36,321 nucleotides of DNA, taken from positions 1 through 36,321 of the forward strand of contig JADHNL010000010.1 of assembly GCA_016779525.1 (NCBI GenBank), in the 5' to 3' direction. This document shows positions 17,015 to 36,321 of the stretch, in pieces (within the stretch, counting starts at the first letter, position 1; each line of letters opens with the position of its first letter). Below the pieces are notes generated by a model. It did no database searches. It worked only from the letters and a program-made list of their open reading frames with translations, and was not told the DNA's origin. Origin of the DNA: SAR86 cluster bacterium. Lineage in GTDB: Bacteria; Pseudomonadota; Gammaproteobacteria; Magnimaribacterales; TMED112. Both the position numbers and the translations under genes were made by a program.

Positions 17015-19984
17015 ATGAAATTAACAAAAACACTTATAATTATTTTCTCAGCATTATTCGTTGCTGCGTGTGGCGGCGGTGGTAGTTCATCACCAGCTCC
17101 AACACCAGCTCCAACGCCAGCTCCAACGCCAGCTCCAACGCCAGCTCCAACGCCAGCTCCAACGCCAGCTCCCGAGTCTTGTTTGGTAGGTGCAGATACA
17201 GGAGTTTCCACTCAAGATTTTGATGGTGTATCTAAAAAGGTTTGTGTCCTTACTTTCCCTGATTCAGCCCCTATAACTGGCGATGTTACCTTAAGTAACG
17301 ATGCTATATACGCACTGAATGGCGCGGTTTTTGTTGGTAATGGTATTGGTGAAGACGGTACTGATGCTGGTGATGATGGTATCCTGACAATTGAAGCAGG
17401 CACAACCATTGTTGGAACAGCCGGTGCAGGCTTTGAAGACGCCACAGCATGGGTAGAAGCCGTTAATGCAGGCGCAGCTGATGTTGAAGTTTCAGATTCA
17501 GATGTTGACTACTTGGTCGTTAAGCCTGGATCCCAGATATTTGTCGAAGGAACCGCTTCAGCACCTGTCATAATGACTGGAGTCAGTGATTTAACTGGAG
17601 AAGTAAGAGCTGGATCTGAAGCTCAATGGGGCGGATTTGTAGTGTCCGGTTTAGCAACACAGAATAATTGTAATGAAGCCGATTTGGGAACAGCAGCTTG
17701 CGTTGCTAATGGCGAAGGTGCTTCAGGATATTACGGTGGAACAAACGATGAAGATAGCTCTGGTTCAATAGAATATTTGCAAGTTAAGTATGCAGGCTAT
17801 AAGTTTTCAAATGAAGACGAATTAAACGGTATAGCATTTCAAGCTGTAGGCTCAGGAACAGTACTAGATTATATACAGGTACATAATGGTTCAGACGATG
17901 GCATTGAATTTTTTGGCGGCACTGCTGGCATTAAACACTTTGTTGTAACAGGTGCATCCGATGATTCTTTGGACTGGACCGATGGTTGGAGAGGGTTCGC
18001 ACAGTATGGTGTGATCGTTCAAACACTTTTCCCAGCTACAGATGCTGCAAGGTCTAAAGACAATGTTATAGAAGCCGATAACTATGGGTCAGATATGGAC
18101 AGAGCGCCAAGATCATTCCCAAAAATGGCTAACATTACCATGGTTCAAGATTACGGCGGAGATACTCTACTATTGAGAGAGGGTACTGGAGCTTTCATCT
18201 TAAATTCCATCATTGCTGGAAATCCAGATGATTCAAGTTATTGCTTGGATATTGATGACAATGAAACTTATAGACATGCAGGCACAGCAGGAAATATGAC
18301 GAATATAAGCTTTGACGGTACAATTTTTGATTCTGTAAAATGTAGCGCCATGGCCGCATCCAGTGGATGGGTTGATCCTTCTTCTTCAGATGAGGGTGCC
18401 GATGTTTTTGACATTGGTGCAGAGCTTGAAAGTCTTGATTCGGTTATGTTTAATGCAACAGGTCTTCATGGTTCCAAAAGAAACGCAGCATACCTATCAC
18501 ACCCACTAGTGAATTCATATCACGCTGGCAAAATTGCTAATGCCAACGTGTTGGATAGCAATCTTGTAACTGAAGATTTTATTGGTGGTGTTAAGAGCGA
18601 TGCTGAGGACTGGACTGTAGGGTGGACATATGGGTTGCATATCTCAAACGCTGACATGCAAGACTATTGCCCATTAGGTACAGCCCTAACAACCATTAAA
18701 GATGGCGGTGGTGCCGCATGTGAAATCACAGCCACTAACGCTGCAGAAACTAACATTAGACTTGTGGGCGGTGGATTGCCATATGTCATGAAAGGAAAGC
18801 TTGTTGTAGGTGATGGTACTGCTGCAGGTGCTCAATACCTGCAAGTTGATCCGGGTGTTACTATTTATAGTGATCAGGTAGCAGGAGAAGGTTCGCTAAC
18901 AGATTTAGATTATGTGGTCGTACCAACCTATTCTAAACTTCTAGTCAATGGTGCACCAGGAGCTCCTGTAACCTTTACTTCAAGCAGAGAAGTGAGAACT
19001 TCAGGTGATAGCGATAGTTCAACCTTATCCGCTGAGACCACTAACGACTGGGGTGGACTAGTAATCAATGGTCTAGCTACTCAAAACAAATGCAATATTA
19101 GTGATATTGGCACTGCAGCCTGTACGGCTGACGGTGAGGGCGCATCTGGTAGCTACGGTGGCACCAATGATGCAGACAACAGTGGTAATATTTTCTACGG
19201 AATCGTTAAGTATGCTGGAAGAAAATTCAACAACGAAGATGAGCTAAATGGTGTAGCTTTCCAAGCTGTTGGTAACAAGACTGAGGTTGATTACCTGCAA
19301 ACATTCAATACTTCAGACGATGGTGTTGAGTTCTTTGGCGGTACTGTCAACGCAAAACACCTCCTTGTGATGAGTGCATCAGACGATTCTATTGACTGGA
19401 CAGATGGATGGCGTGGAAAAGTTCAGCACGCAATTGTCTGGCAGAATCAAGGTCAAGAGTTTGCTGTTGATAGATCAATAGAAGCTGATAACTATGGGTC
19501 AGATATGGACAGAACTCCAAGGTCTATGCCAATGTTTGCCAACCTGACAATAGTCAGCCAAGACGGTCAGGCAGTTCTATTAAGAGAAGGCACAGGGCTT
19601 CATATCTACAATTCAGTTGTGGCTGATGAAGGTGCTAGCACATGTTGGGATATTGACGATGCCACCACCTATGATTTTAATGCCGATGGTGTTCCAGGTG
19701 AAGGTCATGTGTATAGAGGAAATTTATTCTCTTGTGCAACTTTGGCTCAAGATGACGATAGTGGAGCTAACGTTGCTCAGATAGAAGCGTTATTATCATC
19801 CGATACTAATACAGCGTCAGCTGGCGGTGGATCTCTATCTGGTTACTGCAATGGAAGTGTTGAATCAGGGCTAACTCCTGTAGCAATTGACGATGCCTTC
19901 TTCGATAGCACAGACTACGTAGGAGCTTGTGCATCAGCGGAAACCGATTGGACTCTGAACTGGGCTTTTAAGCCATCTGAATAG
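17015..19984 (+). CDS. Large surface-type lipoprotein with (PAPT)n linker and duplicated beta-helix-like domain
   Basis: Signal peptide with lipobox [18 protein letters not shown] upstream; PAPT linker; two homologous segments ([16 protein letters not shown].../[16 protein letters not shown]...; both with [14 protein letters not shown] and [15 protein letters not shown]). Confidence 0.88.
17093..17172 (+). repeat. 12-bp tandem repeat CCAGCTCCAACG (6 units plus partial) encoding (PAPT)6PAP
   Basis: Read directly: CCAGCTCCAACA, then 5 x CCAGCTCCAACG, then CCAGCTCC. Confidence 0.97.
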
Positions 19985-20094: not shown

Positions 20095-22638
20095 GTGAAC
20101 AAATACATCATAATTACCTTAATTATCTTTTCTATGACTTCATTTGGACAAGAGAATGATGAGGATATTAATACTGAAAATATTGAAGATGTAGTGGTTT
20201 CTGTGAGTTTTATACCTGATGAAAAAAGAGATACAAGCGAAATTTCAAATGTTCTCACTTCAGAGGATATGACTTTAGCTGGTGATAGTGCTGCATCTGA
20301 TGCATTAAAAAGAATTACAGGTTTAAGTCTTGTTAAAGGTAAATATGTCTATGTCAGGGGTATGGGTGAAAGATATTCCTCTGCTTTGCTGAACGGGGTC
20401 TTATTACCGAGCCCTGAGCCACTTAAACGTGTTGTCCCCTTTGATATTTTCCCAACTTCAGTTCTAGAGAGTGTTCTAGTTCAAAAAACTTACTCTGCAC
20501 AATATCCTGGTGAATTTGGTGGTGGAGTTATCGATATGAGGACAAAACTTATTCCTGATTCAGAGTTTGCTGAATTTGGAATTTCATTTGCTTATGATTC
20601 TCTAGCAACAAATACAAACGCTCAATTAATGCCTGGATTTGATGGTGATTGGACTGGATTTGACGATGGGTCTAGAAACCTGCCATCAAGTTTGCAGCCA
20701 TTTTATGCTAATGGAGATTTTGTCTCACTTTCTAATGGTTCATATGCTGAACTTACAAGAGCAGGACAAAATTTTGGCGGGGAATGGGCTCCAGAAGAAA
20801 CTAGTTTAAATCCTGGCTTAGGAGTGAATTTAGCCTATGGCAATTCTTATTACCGTGATTCTGGAATAGTGGGCATTTTATTTAGTGCTGGTTACGATAA
20901 TGATTATTCATTTATTCCTGATATTAAGAGAACTAACTATGCCAGAGGATCGGAAAATGATTTGGTGTCTAGAGATACCTATGATGTTCAAAAAACAAAT
21001 AACCAAATTGATTCAAACGTTCTAGCTTCTATTGGATGGGATATCGATGGCATGAATTATCTACAGCTAACTAATTTGTTGGTAAGAAAAACCGATAATC
21101 GCTTGACCTTAAGCGAAGGGAAAAATGTTGAGGCTGATTTTTTTGCAAAAAATACAAAGTTTGAGTGGGTAGAAAGACAAATTAATTCATTGACACTTTC
21201 AGGCAAACACGATCTTAGTTCTGGATTGTATATAGATTGGCGCTATGGCTTTGCCGACGGAAAAAGATTCTCTCCTTTCGAAAGGGAGTATTTCTACGAA
21301 TGTGAAGAATCATTCATAGAAAACTGTTTGGATAAATACGAATTTTCACGACGCTCTGACAGTAACTCAACTCAGTTTTCTTGGTTAAACGATGATGCCA
21401 CTGAGGTTGCTATAGACTTTAATTACCCTTTCCAGACAACATCAAATGAGTTAGAGCTAAGTTTTGGATTAAAGCAATCTAAAAAAGAAAGGAAAACCGA
21501 TGTTAAAAGATATAGATTTTTACCTGATTTTGTTAATGGTTCACTATTCGCTTCTCAAGATTTTAGAAGACAACCCATTGAGAACATACTATCAGCAGAG
21601 AACTTTAGGTTAGATCGTTCTGGCTTAATCTTATTAGAAGAAACTTTAAACACTGATAATTACGAAGGTAATTTGACTATCGATGCTGCTTACTTATCAA
21701 TAGAGACAACATTAAACGATAGCCTTGAAATAACTGCTGGCCTCAGAACAGAAAATTCTGATATAGAAGTTATAACTCAAACTTTTTTTGGCGGAGCCAA
21801 TTCAGCAATATCTACAGATAAATTGGATAAATTGCTGCCCGCTTTGACAGCTACCTACAGCTTTAATGATAGTATGCAGTTGAGGTTGGGTTATAGTGAG
21901 ACATTATCAAGACCACAATTCAGGGAAATGTCCCCAGTCCTTTTTGTCAATTTTGATACCGATAGACTGGAACGCGGTTTTCTTGGTCTTAAGTCATCGG
22001 AGATAACTAATATCGATTTACGATATGAATGGTATTTTGGATCTGGTGAATTTTTTACATTGTCATATTTCAGAAAAGAATTTATCAATCCAATTGAACA
22101 AGTCCTAGAAGCGGCAGCAACTAGTGATTATGTAAGTTATAGAAATGCAAAATCTGCAGAATTAGACGGTATTGAACTTGAGACGCAAAAGCAACTTGGG
22201 GAATTGATAGCCGGATATGACTTTTTTGTAAAATTTAATTACACCCTTAATGAATCAAATGCTGTGACAGACCCTGAATTTGTGGTTTTATCTTCTTATG
22301 ATGATAGGCCTATGGTAGGACAGCCAGAAAATATTTTTAATTTTCAGTTTGGCTACTATGGCTCAAACGATACAAGGCTAAGCCTAAATTACAATGATGT
22401 TGGAGAGAGAATACGAGAATTGGGTACAGATGTAATTCCAAATGTCCTTGAAGATTTGCCTCCTCTGTTAGATCTTGTTTACAGCAAAGAGATTCAGGCT
22501 TGGGATGGAATGCTTGATTTAACAGTTAAATGGAGAAATATCCTTGAAGAACCATATGAAGCACTGCAAGGTGATAAAGTATTTGAATCATATCCTTCAA
22601 GCTCATCTATTTCATTTAGTTTGAAATATAGCTATTAA
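20095..22638 (+). CDS. TonB-dependent receptor
   Basis: GTG start; signal peptide; plug-domain DALKRITGLSLVKGKYVYVRGMGERYSSALLNGVLLPSPEP...YPGEFGGGVIDMRTK; beta-barrel C-terminus ending SFSLKYSY with terminal aromatic residue. Confidence 0.93.
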   Translation: MNKYIIITLIIFSMTSFGQENDEDINTENIEDVVVSVSFIPDEKRDTSEISNVLTSEDMTLAGDSAASDALKRITGLSLVKGKYVYVRGMGERYSSALLNGVLLPSPEPLKRVVPFDIFPTSVLESVLVQKTYSAQYPGEFGGGVIDMRTKLIPDSEFAEFGISFAYDSLATNTNAQLMPGFDGDWTGFDDGSRNLPSSLQPFYANGDFVSLSNGSYAELTRAGQNFGGEWAPEETSLNPGLGVNLAYGNSYYRDSGIVGILFSAGYDNDYSFIPDIKRTNYARGSENDLVSRDTYDVQKTNNQIDSNVLASIGWDIDGMNYLQLTNLLVRKTDNRLTLSEGKNVEADFFAKNTKFEWVERQINSLTLSGKHDLSSGLYIDWRYGFADGKRFSPFEREYFYECEESFIENCLDKYEFSRRSDSNSTQFSWLNDDATEVAIDFNYPFQTTSNELELSFGLKQSKKERKTDVKRYRFLPDFVNGSLFASQDFRRQPIENILSAENFRLDRSGLILLEETLNTDNYEGNLTIDAAYLSIETTLNDSLEITAGLRTENSDIEVITQTFFGGANSAISTDKLDKLLPALTATYSFNDSMQLRLGYSETLSRPQFREMSPVLFVNFDTDRLERGFLGLKSSEITNIDLRYEWYFGSGEFFTLSYFRKEFINPIEQVLEAAATSDYVSYRNAKSAELDGIELETQKQLGELIAGYDFFVKFNYTLNESNAVTDPEFVVLSSYDDRPMVGQPENIFNFQFGYYGSNDTRLSLNYNDVGERIRELGTDVIPNVLEDLPPLLDLVYSKEIQAWDGMLDLTVKWRNILEEPYEALQGDKVFESYPSSSSISFSLKYSY

Positions 22639-28163: not shown

Positions 28164-28240
<77 letters not shown>

Positions 28241-28283
28241 ACAATCTAGATTTATAGTTCAAAAAAATTTATTCTTAACTTAA

Positions 28284-28363
28284 GTGCAAAGGGGAGGTTT
28301 TACCTGAGATCTTTTTAGGAACCCTTTGAACCTGATCCATACAATAATGGCGGAGGAATTGCA
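28284..28363 (+). promoter_or_regulatory. TPP riboswitch (THI element)
   Basis: GTGCAAAGGGGAGGTTTTACCTGAGAT...ACCCTTTGAACCTGATCCATACAATAATGGCGGAGGAATTGCATG. Conserved CTGAGAT, ACCC, GAACCTGATC and GCGGAGGAA blocks; P2 GGGG/ACCC, P5 CCAT/ATGG, P1 TGCAA/TTGCA. Confidence 0.95.
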
Positions 28364-30450
28364 TGAGACATACCAAGAATTATCTTTTTATCATCGTCCT
28401 ACTTTCATCATTTGGCTTTACAGATAATGATGTTGAAGAAGTAGTAGTTAAGGCAGATTGGCGTGAAAATACACTGGCAGAAGAGGACGCTAGCACTTTT
28501 ATTCTGGTAGAATCTGAAATAGATTCGCAACCCATAAAGCACTTTGAAAATATCTCATATCTGGTGCCCAATCTAAACTTTGCAGCGAGCGATTCAAGAG
28601 CTCGGTATTTTCAAATCAGGGGAATTGGCGAACGATCTGGGTATTTAGGAACTCCAAATTCATCGATAGGTTTCTTAATCGATGACGTTGATTACTCTGG
28701 CCAAGGTGGTATTGCTACATTGTTTGATGTTAATCAAATTGAAGTAATTAGAGGACCACAAGCATCTAGAATCGGCGCAAATGCACTGGCAGGACTGATT
28801 TATATCACAACTAATGAGCCTACCGATGAGTTTAAAGGGAAATCTGAACTGAGCATTGGTAATTACAATACATCAAGTTTAGGAACAGCTTTTGGAGGAC
28901 CTTTAACAGCAGACAAAAAAATTAAGTTTCGTTTAGCCATTCGTCAGGATAAATCCGATGGGTTTAGAAAAAATATTTACTTAAATAAATCTAATACCTC
29001 AAGAAAGGACGAAAAGACTTTGAGATTAAAAATAGATTTTGATTTATCAGAATACAGCAATAGCAAACTTCTTTTAAGTCGAGTTGATATGGATGACCCA
29101 GCAGACATATGGACGATTGATAATTCTCTAAATACTCTATCCGATAGGCCAGGGATGGACTCTCAAAAAACAGATACTGCAGGATTTAAATACTTTAAAG
29201 AATTTGATCAATTTGAGTTGCAGAGCTTTACTAGTGCAACTGATACGTTTGTTATTTTTAGCTACGATGCAGATTGGGGCAACCAAGACTCGCATGCCCC
29301 ATATACGTATGATTACTTTTCTGAAACATTGCGAGAAAGACAATCATTCAACCAAGAAGTTAGGCTTGTTTCAAAAGATATAGGACAGCCTTTTAGATGG
29401 GTTTTAGGCACATCATATCTAACTCTTGAAGAAACCAATGATAGAAAAGATGATGGGATTTATGGCGACCCCACAGATCCATATGGACCTTACGAAAGTT
29501 TAAGCTTGGCTAAAAGTGATTATCAGTCTGATAATGTTTCATTTTTCTCTAACTTTGATTATGAGTGGTTTGACAACTTAATTTTTTCGCTAGGCTTAAG
29601 AGCTGAGGAATGGTCTGCAAAATATGCCGATACAAATAACGAACGGTTTGATTTGTCTGACTATATGTTTGGGGGCAAAGCTTCAATAAATTATGTTCTG
29701 AATGACAGGGATAATATTTACTTGAGTTATGCAAAAGGTTATAAGCAGGGTGGTTTTAACGTTGGTCTTGGTTTGCTCGGGCAAGTTGATCCTTCTGACT
29801 TAGAGTACGAGCCAGAACACTTAAGAAATGTTGAGCTTGGCCTTAATGCAGAAATCAACAACTATATTGGACTAAGTTTGAGCTTATTTCGTTCTTTAAG
29901 AGAAGATCAGCAAGTATTAATCTCAACGCAGGTGGATCCTAATGACCCCAATACCTTTGTCTATTTAACTAAAAATGCTGCTGAAGGTTTAAATTATGGA
30001 GCAGAGATAACTGCTGACATAAATTTGAGTGATAATATCTCCGCCTTTGTTAATTTAGGTTATTTAGAAACTGAAATTAAAAATTGGGTATCACGTCCTG
30101 ATGTCACAGGTAGGTCACAAGCACATGCTCCAAAATTTTCTTTGTCATCAGGCATTAACTACAACCTTAATTTAAATACCTCTTTGTCCGTTAACTTTGT
30201 TGGCAAAAGTCGTTTTTATTACTCAGATTCTCATGACAATCAATCAGATTCTTATATCTTAACCAACGCTAGATTAACGCGCATAATTAATGATTGGACC
30301 TTGGATATTTGGGTGCAAAACCTTTTTGATGAATATTATTCAACACGAGGCTTTTACTTTGGTAATGAAGCTCCTGATTTTATTGATACATTGTATCGTA
30401 GGCATGGAGATCCAAGACATTTTGGATTCTCACTAAAGTATGATTTCTAA
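28363..30450 (+). CDS. TonB-dependent receptor, predicted thiamine (or thiamine derivative) uptake
   Basis: Signal peptide; TonB box-like EEVVVKA; plug YFQIRGIGERSGYLGTPNSSIGFLIDDVDYSGQG...QIEVIRGPQASRIGANALAGLIYI; C-terminal HFGFSLKYDF; directly under the TPP riboswitch. Confidence 0.92.
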   Translation: MRHTKNYLFIIVLLSSFGFTDNDVEEVVVKADWRENTLAEEDASTFILVESEIDSQPIKHFENISYLVPNLNFAASDSRARYFQIRGIGERSGYLGTPNSSIGFLIDDVDYSGQGGIATLFDVNQIEVIRGPQASRIGANALAGLIYITTNEPTDEFKGKSELSIGNYNTSSLGTAFGGPLTADKKIKFRLAIRQDKSDGFRKNIYLNKSNTSRKDEKTLRLKIDFDLSEYSNSKLLLSRVDMDDPADIWTIDNSLNTLSDRPGMDSQKTDTAGFKYFKEFDQFELQSFTSATDTFVIFSYDADWGNQDSHAPYTYDYFSETLRERQSFNQEVRLVSKDIGQPFRWVLGTSYLTLEETNDRKDDGIYGDPTDPYGPYESLSLAKSDYQSDNVSFFSNFDYEWFDNLIFSLGLRAEEWSAKYADTNNERFDLSDYMFGGKASINYVLNDRDNIYLSYAKGYKQGGFNVGLGLLGQVDPSDLEYEPEHLRNVELGLNAEINNYIGLSLSLFRSLREDQQVLISTQVDPNDPNTFVYLTKNAAEGLNYGAEITADINLSDNISAFVNLGYLETEIKNWVSRPDVTGRSQAHAPKFSLSSGINYNLNLNTSLSVNFVGKSRFYYSDSHDNQSDSYILTNARLTRIINDWTLDIWVQNLFDEYYSTRGFYFGNEAPDFIDTLYRRHGDPRHFGFSLKYDF

Positions 30451-31021
30451 CTTCTTAAATTCCGTTTGGTTTGAAATCTTGGCTGCTATTCTTGCAATTA
30501 TTTATCTATTGTTGGCATTGAGGCAAGATATTAGGTGTTGGATCGCGTGGATAATAAGCTCATTAATGTATTTATTTGTCATGCTGTATGCGGGGCTGTT
30601 AATGGAATCGGCGCTACAAATCTTTTATGTTGGAATGGGTATCTACGGTTGGATGCAGTGGGACAAAAGATCAGCTCCAGATAAACTCAGCATAAGAAGA
30701 TGGAATAAGAAACAACATTTTTATGCAATTGGATCTCTTCTATGCATAGTTGTAATTTCTGGATATTTGCTTTCACACAATTCAAATGCTGTTGCCCCAT
30801 ACATAGATTCATTTACAACTTGGGGCGCCATTCTTGCAACATTTATGGTAGCAAAAAAAGTTCTAGAGAATTGGATATATTGGTTTGTCATTGATTTTGT
30901 ATCTGTTTTTCTTTTTTTAAGTCGTGAACTTTATCCAACAGCAGTCTTATTTGTCATATATCTAGTAATTATTGTTTTTGGATACAGGGCCTGGGTACAA
31001 GCTATGAGGTCAAACGCCTAA
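30440..31021 (+). CDS. pnuT: PnuC-family transporter, predicted thiamine transporter PnuT
   Basis: Seven predicted TM segments; LALRQDIRCWIAWIISSLMYLFVML; FYVGMGIYGWMQW (PnuC family); overlaps the riboswitch-controlled TBDR gene by 11 nt. Confidence 0.87.
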   Translation: MISNFLNSVWFEILAAILAIIYLLLALRQDIRCWIAWIISSLMYLFVMLYAGLLMESALQIFYVGMGIYGWMQWDKRSAPDKLSIRRWNKKQHFYAIGSLLCIVVISGYLLSHNSNAVAPYIDSFTTWGAILATFMVAKKVLENWIYWFVIDFVSVFLFLSRELYPTAVLFVIYLVIIVFGYRAWVQAMRSNA

Positions 31022-31025
31022 TCAT

Positions 31026-31817
31026 ATGATCAACTTAGGAAAATTTAAGAGAGATCTTACTATCATTGGCATTCTTCAAAAAACAAAGTTTTCAGAAGTC
31101 TATACCTGCAGGTTCCACAACATGGATGTGATCTTAAAATTTAAAAAACACAATCTTTTTGAGAACAATATAGATCTGGAACAGAGCATCCATCGCAAGT
31201 TGGCACCATATAATCTAACACCGAAATTTTTGGATCATGATAAAGAGGCTAATTTAGTTATTTATGAAAAAATTGACGGCACATCAATGGCACCTCACCC
31301 AAATAAAAAAATTCTTTATGACATTGCATTAAAGTTACAAGATCTGCATAGCACAAAAATTGATAATTATGAGTATGAGCTTTTTGAGGAAAAAATAGAG
31401 AAATATTTCCTTACCATTGGTGAGCAAGCTCTAGACTCAGTAAGCAAGAATGCAAAAAGCTTTATAAAAAAAGTTACTGCTGACAAGAGTAAGCTAGTTT
31501 TTTGTCATAACGACTTAAACCTGTCAAACATAATTTATACAGATAACATTTATTTCATAGACTGGGACTATGCTGGGTTAAATCATCCTTATTATGATAT
31601 TGCAACTCTCCTTAATGCATTGGATCTGTCACAAGATGAAGAGAAGTATTTTTTAGATTCCTACACTGGCACTCATAATGCCATGGATTTAGATGTACTA
31701 GATTCATTTAAAAAGTTGGCTTTATATGTTGAATACTTATGGATTGTTGCCACTGCATCCAATGAGGATGATAAATATCGAGATAGATATTTAGAGCTTA
31801 AAAAGCGGCTGCAGTAA
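31026..31817 (+). CDS. Choline/thiamine-kinase-like phosphotransferase, predicted thiamine kinase
   Basis: Kinase motifs LVFCHNDLNLSNII and IYFIDWDYAGLNHPYYDIATLLNA; third gene of the TPP-riboswitch operon. Confidence 0.82.
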   Translation: MINLGKFKRDLTIIGILQKTKFSEVYTCRFHNMDVILKFKKHNLFENNIDLEQSIHRKLAPYNLTPKFLDHDKEANLVIYEKIDGTSMAPHPNKKILYDIALKLQDLHSTKIDNYEYELFEEKIEKYFLTIGEQALDSVSKNAKSFIKKVTADKSKLVFCHNDLNLSNIIYTDNIYFIDWDYAGLNHPYYDIATLLNALDLSQDEEKYFLDSYTGTHNAMDLDVLDSFKKLALYVEYLWIVATASNEDDKYRDRYLELKKRLQ

Positions 31818-34391: not shown

Positions 34392-36321
34392 ATGAAAAAT
34401 TTTTTTATTGGTTTAGTTTTAATACCCTTTGTATTTTTCTCACAGGAAGATATCGAGGAGGTTGTAGTTCAGTCATCAATTTTAGATCAAACGTCAAATG
34501 AACTTGAAGATCCTTTGCACATTGTCTCGGGTGAAGGTGTTGAAAATGATGGCACAAGAAGTTTAGGTGAGGCACTGGACAACTTACTGGGTGTTGCTTC
34601 AACTGATTATGGTTTTGGTGTTGGTCAGCCAATTATTCGTGGGTTATCTGGAAGTAGAGTAAAGATCCTCAATAATGGCATGGTTGTTAGGGATGTTTCT
34701 GCACTTGGAGGAGACCATATTAACGAGGTTGACTTATACAACATTCAGCAAATAGAAATTGTAAGAGGGCCCTCATCTCTACTATATACTAACGGTGCTA
34801 TAGGTGGACTTATAAATATTGTCGACAATACAATTGCTCAAGAAGATTTTGATAAGTTAAGCCTCGGATTAAGTTCTGAATCACAATCTGTTAATGATGG
34901 CTCTAGCATTGGTTTGAACTTCTCAGGCAATTTTGCAGGATTTAATGTCTCCGCAGCCTTCAAAGATTCAGATTTTGCAAACTATGACGTTCCTGACGGT
35001 GCAATAATGCATATGGAAGAAGAACATGAAGAAGAGGAACACGAAGAGGAGCATGAAGAAGATCTAAGCTTTCTTGCAAACTCAGATTACGGTTCAACCT
35101 CAGCAAGATTTGGGTTATCAAAAACAGGCGACTGGGGCTATGTTGGATTGTCATTCAATAATCTTGAGTCATCCTATGGCATTCCATTTCATGGAGAGGG
35201 TCATGAAGGTCATGACGAGCATGAGGAAGGGCATGAAGGCGAGGAACACGAAGAAGAGGGTCATGATGAGCATGAGGGTGAAAGAATATTTTCAACCACT
35301 GAATCAAATGTGGTTAATTTGGAAGGTTCTTTAAATTTAAATTCATCCTTGATCAGCAAGGTTGATTATTTTCTTAGAGATACAGATTACTCTTTAACAG
35401 AACAGCACGCTGAAGAAGATCATGAAGGTGAGGAACATGAAGGCGAGGAACACGACGAACATGGTCATACCGAAGGCCCTACTTTATTTAAAAACGATGC
35501 ATTCGAATTTGGTGCAATATTTGATCTTTCAACAAATGATTTTTCACGAAAAATTTCAGTAAATTTAGCTGAAGAAGAAGTGTCAATTTTCGGTGAAGAA
35601 GCGTATATGTTGCCAGTTTCAAGCTCTGAAGCTAATTTTGGACTTTATCTTGGAAAAGAGATGGGGTTTGGACATGTCGACTTTGGTATTCGTTATGACC
35701 TCATTGATAGAGAGGGTTCAATAATGGAGGAAGAGCATCATGAAGATGAGCATGAGGGAGAAGTGCACGAAGATGAGCATGAGGAGCACGAAGGAGAGGT
35801 AGAATTTTTTAACCCTGACTTTAGTGCTTTAAGTTTTGCCGGGGGCATAGATTTTGATTTAAATGAAAATTTATCCTTAAGCTTAAATTTTGCTAGTGTA
35901 GCTAGAGCACCCTCAGCTGTTGAACTATTCATAAATGGACCTCATCTAGCCACTTCACGATATGAAGTTGGTGATGTAAATCTTGAAGAAGAAAGATCAA
36001 ATAATACAGACCTGTCATTGAGTTGGGCAAGAGGCGAATTTTTTGCTGATCTTTCCTACTTTAGTAATGCAGTCGACAATTATATTTATCTTCAAGATGA
36101 ATCTGAGGAAGAGCATGAAGAGCATGAAGGTGAAGAGCATCATGATCATGGAGGATTGATCTTATCCAACTATATGCAGAGAGATGCTGACTTCTATGGC
36201 TATGAGTTTGAAGTAGGAAGAAATGTTGTTTTACCAAATGGCAACTTTATTTTTACTTATGCTATGGACAGTGTTACGGCTGAGTTTGCTAATGGTGGAG
36301 GATTTGTGCCACGTATAGTTC
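34392..36321 (+). CDS. ZnuD-like TonB-dependent receptor with His/Glu-rich insertions (3' end beyond window)
   Basis: Own translation from ATG 34392 with SD AGGAGG at 34377-34382: MKNFFIGLVLIPFVFFSQEDIEEVVVQSSILDQTSNELEDPLHIVSGEGVENDGTRSLGEALDNLLGVAS...RGLSGSRVKILNNGMVVRDVSALGGDHINEVDLYNIQQIEIVRGPSSLLYTNGAIGGLINIVD; five His/Glu-rich stretches. Confidence 0.92.
   Translation, partial: MKNFFIGLVLIPFVFFSQEDIEEVVVQSSILDQTSNELEDPLHIVSGEGVENDGTRSLGEALDNLLGVASTDYGFGVGQPIIRGLSGSRVKILNNGMVVRDVSALGGDHINEVDLYNIQQIEIVRGPSSLLYTNGAIGGLINIVDNTIAQEDFDKLSLGLSSESQSVNDGSSIGLNFSGNFAGFNVSAAFKDSDFANYDVPDGAIMHMEEEHEEEEHEEEHEEDLSFLANSDYGSTSARFGLSKTGDWGYVGLSFNNLESSYGIPFHGEGHEGHDEHEEGHEGEEHEEEGHDEHEGERIFSTTESNVVNLEGSLNLNSSLISKVDYFLRDTDYSLTEQHAEEDHEGEEHEGEEHDEHGHTEGPTLFKNDAFEFGAIFDLSTNDFSRKISVNLAEEEVSIFGEEAYMLPVSSSEANFGLYLGKEMGFGHVDFGIRYDLIDREGSIMEEEHHEDEHEGEVHEDEHEEHEGEVEFFNPDFSALSFAGGIDFDLNENLSLSLNFASVARAPSAVELFINGPHLATSRYEVGDVNLEEERSNNTDLSLSWARGEFFADLSYFSNAVDNYIYLQDESEEEHEEHEGEEHHDHGGLILSNYMQRDADFYGYEFEVGRNVVLPNGNFIFTYAMDSVTAEFANGGGFVPRIV

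Follow-up and report, generated by a model that had tools for sequence, protein, structure and literature searches.

A predicted TPP-repressed operon for the salvage of intact thiamine in a SAR86 bacterium

The window analysed here is a 36,321-nucleotide stretch of contig JADHNL010000010.1 (GenBank assembly GCA_016779525.1) from a SAR86 bacterium near TMED112, SAR86 being among the most abundant bacteria of the surface ocean. It contains a locus in which a thiamine pyrophosphate (TPP) riboswitch is followed by genes for a TonB-dependent outer-membrane receptor, a PnuT-type transporter and a small-molecule kinase, and we propose, with a probability of roughly 0.84, that this is a TPP-repressed operon with which a bacterium unable to make thiamine scavenges the intact vitamin. 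Salvage of thiamine in its intact form is itself very likely. The locus and the signals within its leader are arranged as follows:

28280–28375, + strand: TPP riboswitch aptamer (THI element); cmscan RF00059, 57.1 bits (gathering score 54.3; E 8.7e-9), model positions 1–105 of 105
28285–28289, + strand: 5' strand of P1 (UGCAA), pairing with 28359–28363; fully paired in 26 sequences
28331–28333, + strand: 5' strand of P4 (CCU), the anti-Shine-Dalgarno, pairing with 28354–28356
28352–28356, + strand: Shine-Dalgarno sequence GGAGG, the last three bases (AGG) being the 3' side of P4; position shared with the relatives read
28359–28363, + strand: 3' strand of P1 (UUGCA), its last base being the A of the receptor ATG; placed from sequence and structure
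28363–30450, + strand: TonB-dependent outer-membrane receptor, omr1/OMthi-like, 695 aa; Pfam TonB_dep_Rec_b-barrel 100.3 bits, Plug 40.3 bits
30440–31021, + strand: PnuT, PnuC-family inner-membrane transporter, 193 aa; Pfam NMN_transporter 161.6 bits
31026–31817, + strand: small-molecule kinase of the APH/choline-kinase fold, 263 aa; Pfam APH 58.4 bits, Choline_kinase 54.4 bits

The four parts lie on the same strand, with the receptor gene directly after the riboswitch and no gap between them, and with the kinase gene beginning 4 nt past the pnuT stop. The original prediction had recognized these components, and they stand: the THI element matches RF00059 above the gathering score and over the full model, the TonB-dependent receptor has Plug and barrel domains that both exceed their cut-offs, the open reading frames of the receptor and the PnuC-family gene share 30440–30450 (the 11-nt overlap described), and the choline/thiamine-kinase-like gene carries both the APH and Choline_kinase domains. 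This aptamer is the only RF00059 match in the window's genome. Sigma-70-like sites are in no excess over shuffled sequences.

What the original prediction did not include is that the receptor start codon (28363) falls within the aptamer. Both the Shine-Dalgarno sequence and the start site lie inside the aptamer in nearly all SAR86 copies read, and the first 39 copies (39/39) have GGAGGAATT(G/A)CAT followed by the start codon either immediately or two bases on. Among 74 named loci with a loose match to the aptamer core, a set that includes a few false matches, 58 fit a stricter pattern that requires both signals within the aptamer; several further SAR86 copies deviate slightly from this pattern, and three Lysobacterales/Xanthomonadales copies miss it, with the gene start about 120 nt past the CTGAGA box. 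The structure drawn on 26 aligned relatives is paired in 99.6% of cells, and in four pairs both partners change (15 cells with double changes, compared with 3.8 in shuffles); one pair in P1 changes from C-G to U-A, and P4 is invariant in these sequences and therefore uninformative about covariation. Folding of the leader as a single sequence gives no stability beyond that of shuffles (z 0.10), an excess that aptamers often lack, and no terminator-like site was found between the aptamer and the receptor gene.

Because the Shine-Dalgarno sequence and the start codon are inside the aptamer and no terminator precedes the gene, direct occlusion of translation is the likely mode of control, and we consider it highly probable that TPP shuts receptor translation in this way. 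A ribosome binding site within the aptamer, with no separate expression platform or terminator, places the leader in the direct translation attenuation class of TPP riboswitches described by Barrick and Breaker (2007), in which conserved, purine-rich sequence in the aptamer's 3' part acts as the ribosome binding site, as it does here (PMC2258182). The mechanism class is thus already published; in SAR86 almost all copies across a gammaproteobacterial order have this form, and P1 extends onto the A of the start codon. In a 2024 review, TPP riboswitches serve as examples of strand exchange (PMC10907184).

In the mechanism that we infer, the receptor would carry thiamine across the outer membrane using TonB energy, PnuT would allow it to equilibrate across the inner membrane, and the kinase would trap it as thiamine monophosphate (TMP), which a chromosomal ThiL would convert to TPP, completing a route from dissolved thiamine. 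Abundant TPP would bind the leader, with P4 sequestering the Shine-Dalgarno sequence and P1 the initial A of the start codon; receptor translation would stop, and translation of the whole operon would probably stop with it, via the overlapping and nearly abutting genes.

The original prediction of dependence on exogenous thiamine agrees with the gene inventory of the window's genome (74.5% complete) and of 151 SAR86 species genomes. In the window's genome, ThiC, ThiE, ThiD and TPK were not found, ThiG gives only a 21-bit sub-threshold match, and ThiL is present (214 bits), such that among the genes proposed for checking (thiC, thiG, thiE and thiL) thiL alone is convincingly detected. Counting either a THI element or PnuT as the cassette, 79 of the 151 genomes have the cassette, 67 have at least one of ThiC, ThiE and ThiG, none has both, and five have neither; a ThiD match over 100 bits also never co-occurs with the cassette. 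Matches to ThiL occur in 147 of these genomes (129 over the cut-off) and to TPK in none; TPP-dependent enzymes are present in the window's genome and in each of the 21 genomes in which they were sought. The window's genome and its cassette-bearing relatives therefore have the gene content of a thiamine auxotroph with a kinase and ThiL route: no ThiC, ThiE or ThiG, no TPK, and ThiL present.

The TPP riboswitch is present in 77 of the 151 genomes. Although thiC is the classic TPP riboswitch target, no TPP riboswitch was detected anywhere in the 42 SAR86 genomes with ThiC, and thiamine synthesis in these bacteria seems to proceed either without TPP riboswitch control or with a diverged form of the riboswitch.

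Within the window's genus, an unrooted ThiL tree requires the strategy to have changed at least twice, without giving the direction of the changes. In a second genus (g11), the cassette genome G036 retains only the ends of thiD-thiE, the start of thiD being joined to the end of thiE by a deletion (G036:C50:57500-61500, locus L162), and G054 has both genes at this site (G054:C75:43500-47500, locus L163); the argC-like neighbour of the G036 scar is also mostly deleted. Nine genomes of the window's genus (G009, G013, G015, G017, G019, G005, G003, G006 and G012) have ThiG and ThiE matches but neither ThiC nor the cassette, and are predicted to be auxotrophs for the pyrimidine moiety (hydroxymethylpyrimidine, HMP); G009 and G015 have no strong ThiD match either.

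The statement that SAR86 is a B1 auxotroph then becomes a lineage-wise rule legible from genomes, with the cassette indicating a need for intact thiamine, ThiE/ThiG without ThiC a predicted need for the pyrimidine only, and ThiC a predicted thiamine maker, and claims about B1 suppliers in the ocean become testable. SAR86 has already been termed B1-auxotrophic in a 2024 coastal study, in passages which report that omr1 adjoins a thiamine diphosphate (TDP) riboswitch in SAR86 and Flavobacteriales clusters of metagenome-assembled genomes (MAGs) (PMC10881298). The position of omr1 beside TPP riboswitches in SAR86 is therefore published; these clusters have the same receptor class and RNA as the window, two of them being of the same lineage, and the passages of that study drawn on here mention neither pnuT nor the kinase, and neither the overlap with the start site nor the mutual exclusion of cassette and synthesis genes across the order.

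The original prediction likened the locus to the riboswitch-controlled receptor and pnuT loci of Bacteroidetes, a comparison which holds for the receptor and PnuT and fails for the enzyme. In most gut Bacteroidetes, a TPP riboswitch, OMthi, pnuT and tnr3 form one operon, in which Tnr3 is named thiamine pyrophosphorylase (PMC5613172). The riboswitch, the TonB-dependent receptor and PnuT are common to the SAR86 operon, whereas here an APH-fold kinase dependent on ThiL takes the place of tnr3. B. thetaiotaomicron, moreover, still has synthesis genes (PMC5613172), and no SAR86 cassette genome does. When B. thetaiotaomicron lacks synthesis, deletion of OMthi or pnuT raises its thiamine need about tenfold (PMC5613172), and the roles proposed for the SAR86 receptor and PnuT are supported by analogy with these losses.

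The operon kinase belongs to the APH/choline-kinase fold by its domains, its predicted structure (predicted local distance difference test, pLDDT, 91.6) and its catalytic motifs. HNDLNLSN and IDWD are intact in the window's protein, and the corresponding HxDxxxxN and DW(D/E) motifs are present in 55 of 55 homologues. With TPK absent and ThiL nearly universal, salvage depends on an enzyme that phosphorylates thiamine to TMP; the kinase of the operon suits this missing step, and that it acts on thiamine is probable. It shares its fold family and predicted reaction with enterobacterial ThiK/YcfN (TIGR02721), which works with ThiL. The locus thus points to a specific protein as the possible missing thiamine kinase, and supplies a compact natural TPP switch. 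A text search of the literature found no papers on thiamine kinase, a result that leaves room for earlier accounts of omr1-pnuT-kinase loci from other gammaproteobacteria.

Several points weigh against the proposal. The kinase does not reach the ThiK cut-off, its closest relative with a solved structure is a choline kinase, and strong kinase matches are missing from most of the cassette genomes in family f2 of SAR86. The absences of single genes from the window's genome are weak because that genome is incomplete, and it is the relatives that carry the argument; since these are related, the counts of 79, 67 and 0 are not 146 independent events. In B. thetaiotaomicron, riboswitch-linked transport transcripts changed little with thiamine, an observation that does not test translation (PMC5613172).

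The first of these points invites the reading that the kinase acts on choline or another small molecule and is incidental in the operon, with thiamine phosphorylated by another enzyme. Its nearest relatives in sequence and fold are LicA choline kinases (best fold match pneumococcal LicA, 4r7b, E 3e-14), and it reaches no curated thiamine-kinase cut-off; at 54.7 bits to TIGR02721 thiK it is far under the cut-off of 299.45 and so is not a ThiK equivalog by that model, and although 15 of 15 aligned members match the model, the window's kinase is itself far under its cut-off. The retention of receptor and PnuT without the kinase by most of family f2 points the same way. Strong matches to the operon kinase are nonetheless limited to the 79 cassette genomes, occurring in 48 of them and in no other SAR86 genome, and in Lysobacterales/Xanthomonadales MAGs with the same four-part order the kinase also adjoins pnuT and reaches 87–105 bits to thiK. 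The gap left by the absence of TPK and the near-universal ThiL is moreover exactly that from thiamine to TMP, and we regard an incidental kinase as unlikely.

In family f2, the loci L062, L063 and L066 are examples with riboswitch, receptor and PnuT, no adjacent kinase and no strong match elsewhere, and most of these genomes have ThiL; either another enzyme makes TMP in them, or TMP itself is imported. The idea that APH proteins of 294–301 aa in f2 are relocated thiamine kinases was set aside, as these reach only 57–66 bits to the operon kinase profile and the two examined have no thiamine link, one of them adjoining panB/panC-like genes. In some f2 loci pnuT is followed by CoaD, which is not a thiamine enzyme. 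The operon kinase is conserved at 22–45% identity, compared with 51–73% for the receptor and PnuT, and we tentatively suggest that it represents a fast-evolving, non-ThiK family of thiamine kinases recruited beside PnuT to feed ThiL, with kinase-less SAR86 using another kinase or taking up TMP; this is somewhat less likely than not to be correct.

The receptor, whose orthologues behind TPP riboswitches in SAR86 are those with 51–73% identity, is predicted to import thiamine or a thiamine phosphate. The imported form could be TMP, TPP, HMP or the thiazole instead of thiamine, as the specificity of the receptor is a prediction, a purple-acid-phosphatase-like gene lies 5' of the cassette in some same-genus relatives, and kinase-less f2 genomes could subsist on TMP and ThiL. 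Were TMP to enter intact, however, the operon kinase would be redundant, and the phosphatase gene neither occurs in the window nor follows the riboswitch. Partial forms of thiamine would be useless because ThiE, ThiD and ThiG are missing from every cassette genome, and entry of any of these forms in place of thiamine seems improbable.

The phosphatase-like gene is immediately 5' of the cassette in a same-genus relative of the window (L018:3380-4984), and genes of equal length (534 aa) occupy the same place in L013, L016, L019, L020 and L021, the L018 copy being the one classified; the window has other genes at this position. Its product could strip phosphates from thiamine phosphates in the periplasm.

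PnuT is predicted to be a thiamine facilitator, a subtype supported by genomic context. Its predicted structure has seven helices (pLDDT 85.5) and matches PnuC 4qtn (TM 0.81 on the query), and its matches are confined to genomes with a THI element or cassette, apart from one chance match of 19.5 bits. That it instead imports nicotinamide riboside, the operon then linking NAD to TPP, has in its favour the PnuC-like fold and a score of 74.3 bits against the NCBIfam PnuC cut-off of 42.45, but this broad model does not distinguish carriers of thiamine from those of nicotinamide riboside, thiamine carriers (PnuT) are known in the PnuC family (PMC5613172), and the transporter follows a TPP riboswitch and tracks thiamine auxotrophy across the 151 genomes, such that this alternative is very improbable.

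Elsewhere in the window, a tRNA-Ile (28164–28240) lies upstream of the riboswitch. A 989-aa open reading frame (17015–19984) has no Pfam match at E 1e-8, and its NCBIfam matches are weak and cover N-terminal stretches only; after it comes the gene (20095–22638) for a TonB-dependent receptor of TonB-Xanth-Caul type. A further TonB-dependent receptor (34392–36320) is truncated by the contig end, its nearest model being the ZnuD zinc receptor (188 bits, below the cut-off).
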